Assembly: GCF_029814175.1 (NCBI RefSeq)
Contig: NZ_CP122312.1
Location: forward strand, 2,294,001 to 2,358,000
Origin: Halospeciosus flavus
Lineage (GTDB): Archaea > Halobacteriota > Halobacteria > Halobacteriales > Halobacteriaceae
Reading direction: 5' to 3'
DNA length: 64,000 bases
How positions within the stretch are numbered: position 1 is the stretch's first letter; the number at the start of each line of letters is the position of its first letter. Under the pieces are notes generated by a model. That model saw only the letters and a program-made list of their open reading frames with translations. It made no database searches and was not told the origin of the DNA. Positions 3,409-13,317 of the stretch are shown in pieces. A program made the position numbers and the translations under genes.

Positions 3409-4515
3409 ATGGACGACCGAATCCACGAACACGCCGAGGTGCTGGTCGACTGGAGCGCCCGCGTCGACGAGGGCGACGACGTCGTCGTCTCCGTCGGCGA
3501 GGACGCCCACGAACTCGCCGTCGCCGTCGCCGAACTGCTCGGCGAACGCGGCGCCAATCCCGTCACGCTCTACGGCTCCGACGAAGTCTCGCGCGCCTAC
3601 CTCCACGGCCACGAGGGGGACTTCGACGACGACCCCGCCCACGAACTCGCACTCTACGAACACGCAGATGTGGCCCTCTTCCTCCGCGGCGGCCGCAACA
3701 CGACCGCGACGGCCGACGTGCCGAGCGAGACCCGGCAGACCTACAACACCGCCCGCGAGGGCGTCCGGGAGGCGCGGATGGACACCGACTGGGTGAGCAC
3801 CCTCCACCCGACTCGCTCGGGCGCCCAGCAGGCCGGGATGGCCTACGAGGAGTACCAGGACTTCGTCTACGACGCGGTCCTCCGCGACTGGCAGGCGCTC
3901 GCCGACGAACAGGCGAAACTGAAGGACCTCCTCGACGAGGGGAGCGAAGTCCGCATCGTGAAGGAGGAGACCGACCTCACCGTGTCCATCGAGGACCGCG
4001 TCGCCGTCAACTCCGCGGCGTCCGTCGACTACGACTCGCACAACCTCCCAAGCGGCGAGGTGTTCACCGCCCCGCACGCAACCGAGGGCGAGGTGTTCTT
4101 CGACGTCCCCATGACCATCAACGACCGCCGCGTCCGGAACGTCCACCTCACCTTCGAAGACGGCGAGGTCGTCGACTGGTCGGCCGAACAAGGCGAGAAG
4201 TCCATCCGGGAAACCCTCGAAACCGACGAGGGCGCCCGCCGCCTCGGCGAACTCGGCATCGGCATGAACCGCGGCATCGACCGCGTCACCGACAACATCC
4301 TCTTCGACGAGAAGATGGGCGGCACCGTCCACCTCGCGCTCGGGCGCGCCTACGAGTCGAACTACCCGCCCGGCCACGAGTCGGAGGCCGTCGAGTCGGC
4401 CGTCCACGTCGACCTGATCACCGACATGCAGGAGGAGGGGTCGCGCCTCGAAGTCGACGGCGAAGTCGTCCAGCGGGACGGGATATTCCGCTGGGAGGAC
4501 GGCTTCGAGGGGTAG
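3409..4515 (+). CDS. Aminopeptidase, M29 family
   Basis: A 368-residue cytosolic metallo-aminopeptidase of the AmpS/aminopeptidase T family, which removes N-terminal residues from peptides using a co-catalytic metal pair. Visible family marks are the start HEHAEVLVDWS, the central phrase LPSGEVFTAPHATEGEVFFD (broken here into LPSGEVFTAP and ATEGEV), and a C-terminal ELGIGMNRGI...ILFDEKMGGTVHLALG stretch that carries metal-binding Glu and His residues. Length matches the family. It follows the CBS gene by 42 bases. Its stop lies 3 bases from the stop of the convergent cyclophilin-like gene. Confidence 0.92.
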   Translation: MDDRIHEHAEVLVDWSARVDEGDDVVVSVGEDAHELAVAVAELLGERGANPVTLYGSDEVSRAYLHGHEGDFDDDPAHELALYEHADVALFLRGGRNTTATADVPSETRQTYNTAREGVREARMDTDWVSTLHPTRSGAQQAGMAYEEYQDFVYDAVLRDWQALADEQAKLKDLLDEGSEVRIVKEETDLTVSIEDRVAVNSAASVDYDSHNLPSGEVFTAPHATEGEVFFDVPMTINDRRVRNVHLTFEDGEVVDWSAEQGEKSIRETLETDEGARRLGELGIGMNRGIDRVTDNILFDEKMGGTVHLALGRAYESNYPPGHESEAVESAVHVDLITDMQEEGSRLEVDGEVVQRDGIFRWEDGFEG

Positions 4516-11185: not shown

Positions 11186-12040
11186 TCAGCCGAGGTGGAC
11201 CGGATTCTCGGTCGGGTCGAGGCGCACCCGGAGGGCGTCGCCCACCGCGAAGTCGTGGTCCGGGCAGACGACCTTCGTCCCCAGCGAGTCGCGGCTGGCG
11301 AACAGCGAGAGGCCCGTACACCGCGTGCCGTTCGCGGAGACCGCGACGTCGCGCCAGGCGACCGTCCGCCGGTCGTCGCACACGTCCCCGACCGGCGTTC
11401 CGAGGAGCGAGACGGAGTCGCCCGCGTCGGCGCCGGCCCCGAGGACGCCGCCCCCCGAGTAGTGGACCAGTCCGCCGTCGAGGGGGAGACCGTCGTCCGT
11501 CGCGAGCGCGGCGAAGATACCCGAACTGGGGTGGTCGGGTGCGTCGAGGACGACGTACGTCTCGCCGGTCTCGACCACCTCGCCGGTCCCGTCCCAGGTG
11601 ACGGGTTCGACCGGGACGTCGAGCGACAGCGACAGCGACCCGGAGGCGCGGACGGGGTTCGCGTCCCGCTCCCTGAAGCCGAGGTGGACGTGGTTGTCGA
11701 CCCACGGGGCGAAGAAGCCAGAGCGGACCATCGTCCCGAGGGAGTCCCCCACCGCTACCTCGTCGCCCGCGTCGACCGAGGGGTCGACGTGGAGGACGCG
11801 GGCGTAGTGGGTCCCCGTGTCGACGACGACGAGGTGGTCGTAGTCGGCGGCGTAGGGTTTCGGCGGGCAGCGGACGGTTCGCGTCTCGACGACCTCGCCG
11901 GCGACCGGACTCGGCGCGTCGTCGTCGGGCGTCTCGGGGTAGAAGTCGACCGCGCAACCGGCGTCGTGTTCGGGGTACGGGGAGTTGTAGAGCGAGAATC
12001 GGGGGTAGCGACGGACGACCGACGCCGGGAGCGTGACCAT
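11186..12040 (-). CDS. M23/LytM-like duplicated-hybrid-motif protein
   Basis: A 284-residue protein whose N-terminal half has the layout of the M23 (LytM) metallopeptidase fold: His25 and Asp32 in PEHDAGCAVDF, His84 in RVLHVD, and the HxH pair His117/His119 in DNHVHLGF, with the typical barrel strands SPVAGEVVE and AGDEVAVGDSLG. All expected zinc ligands seem present. The C-terminal half (residues 135-284) is a beta-rich domain I do not recognise. No signal peptide is visible, and haloarchaea lack peptidoglycan, so the usual substrate is absent. It may act on another peptide or be a binding protein. Confidence 0.65.
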   Translation of the reverse strand: MVTLPASVVRRYPRFSLYNSPYPEHDAGCAVDFYPETPDDDAPSPVAGEVVETRTVRCPPKPYAADYDHLVVVDTGTHYARVLHVDPSVDAGDEVAVGDSLGTMVRSGFFAPWVDNHVHLGFRERDANPVRASGSLSLSLDVPVEPVTWDGTGEVVETGETYVVLDAPDHPSSGIFAALATDDGLPLDGGLVHYSGGGVLGAGADAGDSVSLLGTPVGDVCDDRRTVAWRDVAVSANGTRCTGLSLFASRDSLGTKVVCPDHDFAVGDALRVRLDPTENPVHLG

Positions 12041-12428
12041 CGCCCGACGGTAGGACGAACGGGGGGATAAGCGCCTCGGGAGGTGGGCACCGCCCGGCGG
12101 CGTTCGCGGTCACGCTGCCGGTCGTCGAGCCCTTACTTTGTATATCAGGGCCGTTACTCTTAATATCTGAAGTGTCCTTGATAAAGGTGGGTGTCACCAC
12201 TCCACGGTCGTGTCAGCACGAATCCGAACGAGTCGGCGAGAACCCCACCAAAGTCCCACCTCTCGTGCCAGTCCGTTTCGAATCGCCGCTGCCTCGACCA
12301 CCCCCTCCCCCCTACATCGACCCCACGGACGCCCTCTCCCACCGAGGGCGTTTTTAGTGACGCGACGCCGATCCGCCGCAGCGCACCAGTACCGCTCGGC
12401 CCGTCGGTCACGCCGAGTGCGACCTGGT

Positions 12429-12568
12429 CGCGATAACTCGACAAACACGGCCCATATCTCACCAACTCGGCGTATATCTCGACAACTCGCCGTATATCTC
12501 CACAACGTGGCCCACAACTGAGTTATCGTGACCGATAGTTGAGATATGGGCGCCCATATCTGAGAAGC
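12429..12568 (+). repeat. Iteron-like array of degenerate 20-bp direct repeats
   Basis: Three contiguous units at 12449, 12469 and 12489 share the pattern GGCsyATATCTCnmCAACTC, each exactly 20 bp. Weaker copies flank them at about 12431 (GATAACTCGACAA) and 12509 (CACAACTGAG). An inverted copy (GATAGTTGAGATATGGGC, 12533-12551) and a final direct half-copy (GCCCATATCTGAGAAG) follow. A 20-bp period places the copies near the same face of the helix, as in regulator-binding or iteron arrays. There are no unique spacers, so this is not a CRISPR array. Confidence 0.65.
12542..12561 (+). promoter_or_regulatory. 20-bp perfect palindrome at the end of the array
   Basis: AGATATGGGC-GCCCATATCT is a perfect palindrome made by two head-to-head copies of the repeat core (GCCCATATCT). 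It lies about 73-92 bases upstream of the lipoate ligase homologue. It is a plausible dimer-binding operator for the factor that recognises the array. Confidence 0.5.
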
Positions 12569-12633
12569 GGCGTGCTTCAGACGAGGGGCGACGAGGCCCG
12601 ACAGTTTACGTACTCCGGCGCTTACCCATCCCC

Positions 12634-13317
12634 ATGCGACTCCTGCGTGGCCGGGCCGACACGCGGCGGGCGGACCGCGAGGCGACCCGCCACCTCGTCG
12701 ACCGCGTCGGCGAGACCGGCGAACCCGCAGTCCGGGTGTGGCGGCCCGGTCGGCAGGTGGCCTTCGGCCGGCGCGACACGCGACAGGACGGCCACGAACG
12801 GGCGGCCGAGTGCGCCCGCGAGCGTGGATTCCCGCCGGTCGATCGGAGCGTCGGCGGTCGGGCGGTCGCCTACACGGAGACGACCGTGGCGTTCGCCCGC
12901 GTCGAACCCGTCGACGACATCCGCGAGGGACTCGACGCGCGTTACACCGCACTCGTCGACGACGTCCAGCGCGCACTCTGGCAGTTGGGCGTCCCCGCCC
13001 AGCGCGGCGAACCCGACGCCTCGTTCTGTCCGGGCGCACACTCGCTCCAGTACCGCGGGAAACTCGTGGGCATCGCCCAGCGCGTCCGCTCGGACGCCGC
13101 GCTCGTCTCGGGCGTACTCGTCGTCGACGGCCACGACCCCATCGCCGACGTCCTGACTCACGTCTACGAGGCGCTCGACCACCCCTTCGACCCGGGGAGC
13201 GTCGGGAGCCTCGCCCGCGCCGGCGGCGACACCTCGCCCGAACGCGTCCTCCGGACGCTCGAAGACACGCTCGTCGGCGACGACGACGTCCGCGTCGAAC
13301 ACGTCCGTCAGGCTTAG
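12634..13317 (+). CDS. Lipoate-protein ligase / octanoyltransferase family protein
   Basis: A 227-residue member of the BPL/LplA/LipB fold, which attaches lipoate or octanoate to the lipoyl lysine of 2-oxoacid dehydrogenase E2 and similar proteins. Seen are VRVWRPGRQVAFGRRD near the start, the RSVGGRAVAY strand (family RRxGGG), FCPGAHSLQYRGKLVGIAQR with the catalytic-type lysine in GKLVGIAQ, and VSGVLVVDG. It lacks the LplA C-terminal accessory domain. Lipoyl synthase and a lipoylated E2 are encoded at 60-64 kb, giving a complete route in this window. Whether it transfers lipoate, octanoate or another acyl group is not clear. Confidence 0.8.
   Translation: MRLLRGRADTRRADREATRHLVDRVGETGEPAVRVWRPGRQVAFGRRDTRQDGHERAAECARERGFPPVDRSVGGRAVAYTETTVAFARVEPVDDIREGLDARYTALVDDVQRALWQLGVPAQRGEPDASFCPGAHSLQYRGKLVGIAQRVRSDAALVSGVLVVDGHDPIADVLTHVYEALDHPFDPGSVGSLARAGGDTSPERVLRTLEDTLVGDDDVRVEHVRQA

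Follow-up and report, generated by a model that had tools for sequence, protein, structure and literature searches.

What does an array of short repeats do in the gap upstream of a lipoate ligase-like gene of Halospeciosus flavus, and is it a matter of this locus alone? The window studied here is the whole stretch of 64,000 nucleotides that was analyzed. Its first-pass annotation described contiguous 20-bp units, weaker flanking copies and an inverted copy in a 593-bp gap between an M23-like gene and a lipoate ligase homologue. All these parts of the array were found again, as were the gap and the lplA-like neighbour, which matched Pfam LplA-B_cat (E 1.3e-12). The M23-like label of the minus-strand neighbour was not confirmed, as its product belongs to no Pfam family at E ≤ 1e-5. 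The features of the locus, in window positions, are the following.

11186 to 12040, minus strand: flanking gene, 284 aa (context only)
12041 to 12633, no strand: array-bearing gap of 593 bp; the syntenic divergent gap in the sister-genus genome G007 is about 50 bp
12433 to 12445, plus strand: unit 1, ATAACTCGACAAA
12454 to 12466, plus strand: unit 2, ATATCTCACCAAC, strong half first
12474 to 12486, plus strand: unit 3, ATATCTCGACAAC, the commonest unit type genome-wide (18 of 201)
12494 to 12506, plus strand: unit 4, ATATCTCCACAAC
12514 to 12526, no strand: unit 5, ACAACTGAGTTAT, a near-symmetric dyad
12535 to 12547, minus strand: unit 6, ATAGTTGAGATAT, inverted; its minus strand reads ATATCTCAACTAT
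12542 to 12561, no strand: perfect 20-bp palindrome, AGATATGGGCGCCCATATCT, composed of the halves that units 6 and 7 turn towards each other
12556 to 12568, plus strand: unit 7, ATATCTGAGAAGC
12634 to 13317, plus strand: flanking gene for an LplA/B catalytic-domain protein, 227 aa (context only)

The window array comprises seven 13-bp units in register, spanning 12433-12568. The three contiguous 20-bp units were confirmed at 12454, 12474 and 12494, and TRF reported a period of 20 over 12454-12506 (2.7 copies, 87% matches); the 28-nt family D1 also covers the repeat. Inverted copies fall within units 5-7. The palindrome reported by the annotation is indeed perfect but is no feature of its own, since it arises where units 6 and 7 face each other. 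The two-turn period, read there as fitting a protein bound along one face, belongs to a real array with 20/21-bp spacing. Between the minus-strand gene and the array lie about 390 bp (12041-12430) that have no counterpart in the sister-genus gap. No Rfam match was obtained at E ≤ 1, either for the array or for this stretch.

To what extent the array exceeds chance was evaluated in its own genome. The core ATATCTCNNCAAC gave 67 genome matches with at most one mismatch, against 21 for a reversed control, and 38 exact matches, many of them clustered at spacings of 20, 40 or 60 bp. A two-unit pattern gave 105 forward matches with up to three mismatches and 28 with up to one, compared with 18 and 0 for the control. 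The window array is far beyond chance. We then defined the family by searching the contigs of the genome with a four-unit sequence profile, and all 124 matches fell within 34 places on the main chromosome (C1, 3.18 Mb). The same search of the two smaller contigs, C2 and C3, detected no array; if placement were random, the absence of arrays from these 380 kb would have a probability of 0.02. Unit-like sites numbered 113 in 5 kb of array and 8 in 267 kb outside. The arrays are spread across the whole chromosome, with no significant unevenness (Rayleigh p 0.20). The window array is one of 34 arrays of common design on the main chromosome, and this shows that a repeat of 140 bp may be a small visible part of something that extends over a whole genome.

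A total of 201 units were assigned in the 34 arrays, with five units in eight arrays, six in 16, seven in nine and two in one. Unit spacing is 20 bp (n=137) or 21 bp (n=21), each unit being a 13-bp pseudo-dyad followed by a G+C-rich, unconserved spacer of 7 bp. The symmetrised consensus refined from the matched places is ATATCTSAGATAT, that is, ATATCT-S-AGATAT; the core motif of the annotation is enriched, but it is better written as this pseudo-dyad than as ATATCTCnnCAAC. Units are asymmetric, with a strong half, ATATCTC, conserved at 83-96% per base and a loose second half; 9 are exactly symmetric where 24 were expected. Those of one array mostly share their direction, far beyond chance (score 117, against a random mean of 60 and a maximum of 89 in 5000). 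When arrays were aligned on their first unit, the A+T profile displayed six sharp periods with background on either side. TpA steps occur at unit phases 1 and 10 (0.63 and 0.55), which suits DNA bending. In RNA folding, the arrays beat dinucleotide shuffles (mean z -2.3; 21 of 68 below -3); the reading as an RNA element was dropped, because palindromic units alone can yield better folding.

Gene positions around the arrays were taken from codon-usage gene calls made in this analysis. All 34 arrays are intergenic, in 20 codirectional, eight divergent and six convergent gaps, a mix not clearly different from the background of gaps of at least 40 bp (54/35/11%, in the same order). Their neighbours are diverse and include eS8, a TCP-1/cpn60 chaperonin, adenylosuccinate synthetase, MutL, phosphoglycerate dehydrogenase beside a HAD phosphatase, a class-I glutamine amidotransferase, an AlaX-like protein, MsrA, transporters and sensor kinases. 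We sought a common function among these flanking genes and found none, hence no theme of a local operator. The suggested link to lplA-like genes did not hold either: sister genera have no array at lplA, and the genes next to the remaining 33 arrays are unrelated ones.

Some flanking regions hold further elements. Three arrays have beside them (left flank of L011, left flank of L021 and right flank of L034) an intergenic repeat of another, unrelated kind, GAGATTCGG ... GAGAATCTCGG, whose copies reach about 130 bp and are 71-74% identical. The gap left of the array at L037 (about 3577-4016) contains a tRNA-like gene followed by two extra copies of its 3' end (CCCGGCGAGTCCA); these copies sit in 94-bp direct repeats and resemble stacked attachment sites or a tandem duplication. 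Elsewhere in the genome, the Cdc6/Orc1 C-terminal domain gave twelve matches above the cut-off, ten chromosomal and two on C2, the best one at C1:2457006.

We further compared the array gaps with those of related genomes. In the sister-genus genome G007, of which 1.6 of 2.2 Mb were read, five of the 34 gaps were comparable by synteny and none of the five holds an array. The lplA gap measures 51 bp there and 593 bp here, and the L028 gap 44 versus 367 bp. At L021, 103 bp lie between the alignment ends in G007, against a gap of 264 bp here; at L027 the G007 gap is the longer one (401 versus 194 bp), and no gap is left between the alignments at L043 for a comparison. Among 17 lplA-bearing genomes of the family, no array was found upstream of lplA. 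The array is thus missing from the orthologous place in relatives while its core is massively enriched in its own genome, and this split outcome indicates a lineage-specific element rather than the chance degeneracy that the annotation had named as the refuting outcome.

Across 394 genomes of the order, strong matches were found in the own genome alone. A motif-blind W/S pattern gave 26 matches in this genome; the next highest counts were 8, from a simple tandem repeat, and 7, and most genomes had 0-2. An exact-pattern scan of 84,980 species returned 15 single matches, the sole haloarchaeal one being in MAG QS_4_70_19. IMG/VR contributed one chance-like match, and a plasmid BLAST with the array region none. 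Weaker look-alikes turned up in a single other genus, g76 (family f4), two genomes of which had 23 and 21 weak matches at E ≤ 0.5, whereas ten control genomes had 0-1 each. The matched places show A/T phasing of about 10 bp and are enriched in GATATCC/ATATCCG; as they were picked with the own-genome profile, a second family of weaker look-alikes in g76 is likely, not proven. Intergenic-looking A/T-phased arrays with ATATCCG-type units were seen in the g76 genomes G367 and G236 (for example at L076 1501-1569, L073, L074 and L077), so that this genus may be another lineage that has a version of its own. When 381 kb of G367 were searched for chains of phased A/T runs, only a weak signal emerged. 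Different 20-bp repeats were also noticed: a tandem repeat of AATCGAGGCGAATAGCGCGA type in another genus (G076:C28:3053-3165), and a short direct repeat of AATTTCGCGTGAAACGGCC type with phased A/T runs in the same family (G009:C1:329351-329423). In the open-access literature that was searched, haloarchaeal arrays of this kind are undescribed.

We tentatively propose that the 34 arrays are a lineage-specific chromosomal protein-binding element, with dispersed organizing or segregation anchors as its likeliest role. Each pseudo-dyad would bind one dimer of a putative helix-turn-helix or ribbon-helix-helix protein, and the 20-bp spacing would set every site on one face of the DNA. Loading might then be cooperative, with about six dimers forming a filament of bounded length or wrapping some 115-135 bp of DNA, and the common unit direction would render the complex polar. 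Such complexes could serve as dispersed anchors for organization or segregation of the main chromosome, sparing genes and core promoters. An element of this kind appears more likely than a local operator because no theme links the neighbours, convergent gaps hold arrays as well, units hardly ever stand alone and arrays occur on the main chromosome only. This preference is a judgement, not a demonstration, with a regulon and insulators as live rivals. The sites are not concentrated near an origin, unlike those of many centromere systems, which counts against an anchor role, and given their lineage-specific presence any core role in segregation would be a recent acquisition. It is conceivable, but rather doubtful, that they are part of a haloarchaeal dispersed-centromere or anchoring system in which a lineage-specific protein forms polar six-dimer complexes on the 34 arrays and other genera, namely g76 with its ATATCCG-type units, evolved versions of this architecture for themselves.

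Alternatively, the arrays could be operators of a global transcription factor that binds cooperatively upstream of promoters and represses or activates a regulon of 34 loci. Of the 68 gene ends that face an array, 36 are start codons, so that regulation of some neighbours is possible. With one doubtful gene call aside, these codons lie at least 37 bp from the arrays (median 92 bp), which fits upstream sites, and the Lrp-type regulators of archaea bind 13-17-bp sites that lie in clusters, at intervals of two or three helical turns (PMC2995911). However, the six arrays in convergent gaps have no start codon there, the neighbours share no function, the near absence of isolated units is unusual for a regulon, and none of the 10 Lrp-family genes located in the genome adjoins an array. 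We regard operators as possible, if improbable.

Insulation of transcription, in which bound arrays just past genes would serve as roadblocks to read-through between transcription units, seems an unlikely role. Arrays often begin 2-25 bp past a stop codon (median distance 24 bp), and of the 20 arrays in codirectional gaps, 16 lie nearer to the stop codon upstream of them than to the start codon downstream, and 15 have their strong half on the coding strand (two-sided binomial p 0.04). This bias with transcription direction, together with the nearness of stop codons, would fit an insulator or terminator role too. Against it, in none of the eight divergent gaps does a stop codon face the array, the excess of stop-codon proximity is weak once promoter room is allowed for (p 0.06), and no T-run follows the arrays in the sequences.

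A further possibility, which we also find unlikely, is that a REP/MITE-like extragenic repeat or miniature mobile element spread and then decayed. The copies are lineage-specific and scattered between genes whatever the orientation of these genes, and the short sister-genus gaps at lplA and L028 would agree with insertion. REP/BIME elements are likewise dispersed, intergenic and palindromic, but the arrays bear no trace of copying, and their 20-bp phase is fixed and their length bounded (PMC3733652, PMC3116915). Whole arrays are no more alike than arrays of shuffled units (likeness 0.564 versus 0.573), and spacer identity is 0.36, the same within and between arrays; the unconserved spacers and the lack of between-array likeness indicate that site and phase are what is kept. 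Around the arrays, no target duplications or terminal repeats were evident, and no flank homology is common to them, with only a few gaps sharing other flanking repeats. The MITE hallmarks, namely terminal inverted repeats, target duplications and copies related by descent, are therefore lacking, and selection for binding is favoured over copying as the explanation. Of the roles suggested by the annotation, a regulatory or a nucleoid-organizing one may apply.

Plasmid iterons consist of several direct repeat copies of about 20 bp each. The 20-bp period and the inverted copy recall them, but the reading as replication iterons or remnants of an integrated replicon is highly improbable and was rejected for the family by number and location: the 34 dispersed arrays are all chromosomal, amid housekeeping genes, with no replicon of their own and no initiator gene among their flanking genes, and the smaller contigs are empty although C2 has its own Orc1/Cdc6 genes.

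To our knowledge, little is known of how haloarchaea organize and segregate their polyploid chromosomes. Phased, polar candidate arrays confined to the main chromosome, 34 in number, provide a ready bait for the binding protein and clear sites for ChIP and contact mapping. Haloarchaeal histones probably do not package the genome (PMC10128011). Regions bound by the histone HpyA resemble the arrays in their local A/T periodicity near 10 bp, but HpyA has no motif, the HstA motif is TCGNSSNCGA compared with ATATCTSAGATAT here, and both proteins bind coding as well as intergenic DNA, unlike the always intergenic arrays (PMC10128011). The SegB sites of chromosome segregation in Sulfolobales, 46 sites in 39 peaks in S. 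solfataricus, are closer: like the units described here, they are 13-bp palindromes with a central S, and tens of sites are distributed over one chromosome (PMC12284271). Their core nevertheless differs, AGA-S-TCT against TCT-S-AGA, and SegB sites are mostly single and intragenic, whereas 5-7 phased units form the intergenic arrays (PMC12284271). Archaeal Lrp targets are clustered imperfect inverted repeats of 13-17 bp around which the protein wraps about 100 bp of DNA (PMC2995911). The clustered 13-bp pseudo-dyads with 20/21-bp spacing are Lrp-like, Lrp sites being two or three helical turns apart, but the centre of an Lrp site is AT-rich, while the units described here have a CTSAG centre between AT-rich edges (PMC2995911). 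Lrp and SegB sites, neither fitting fully, are the nearest analogues of the arrays, which appear to act like a cooperative multi-dimer site and are assigned to none of the families compared.
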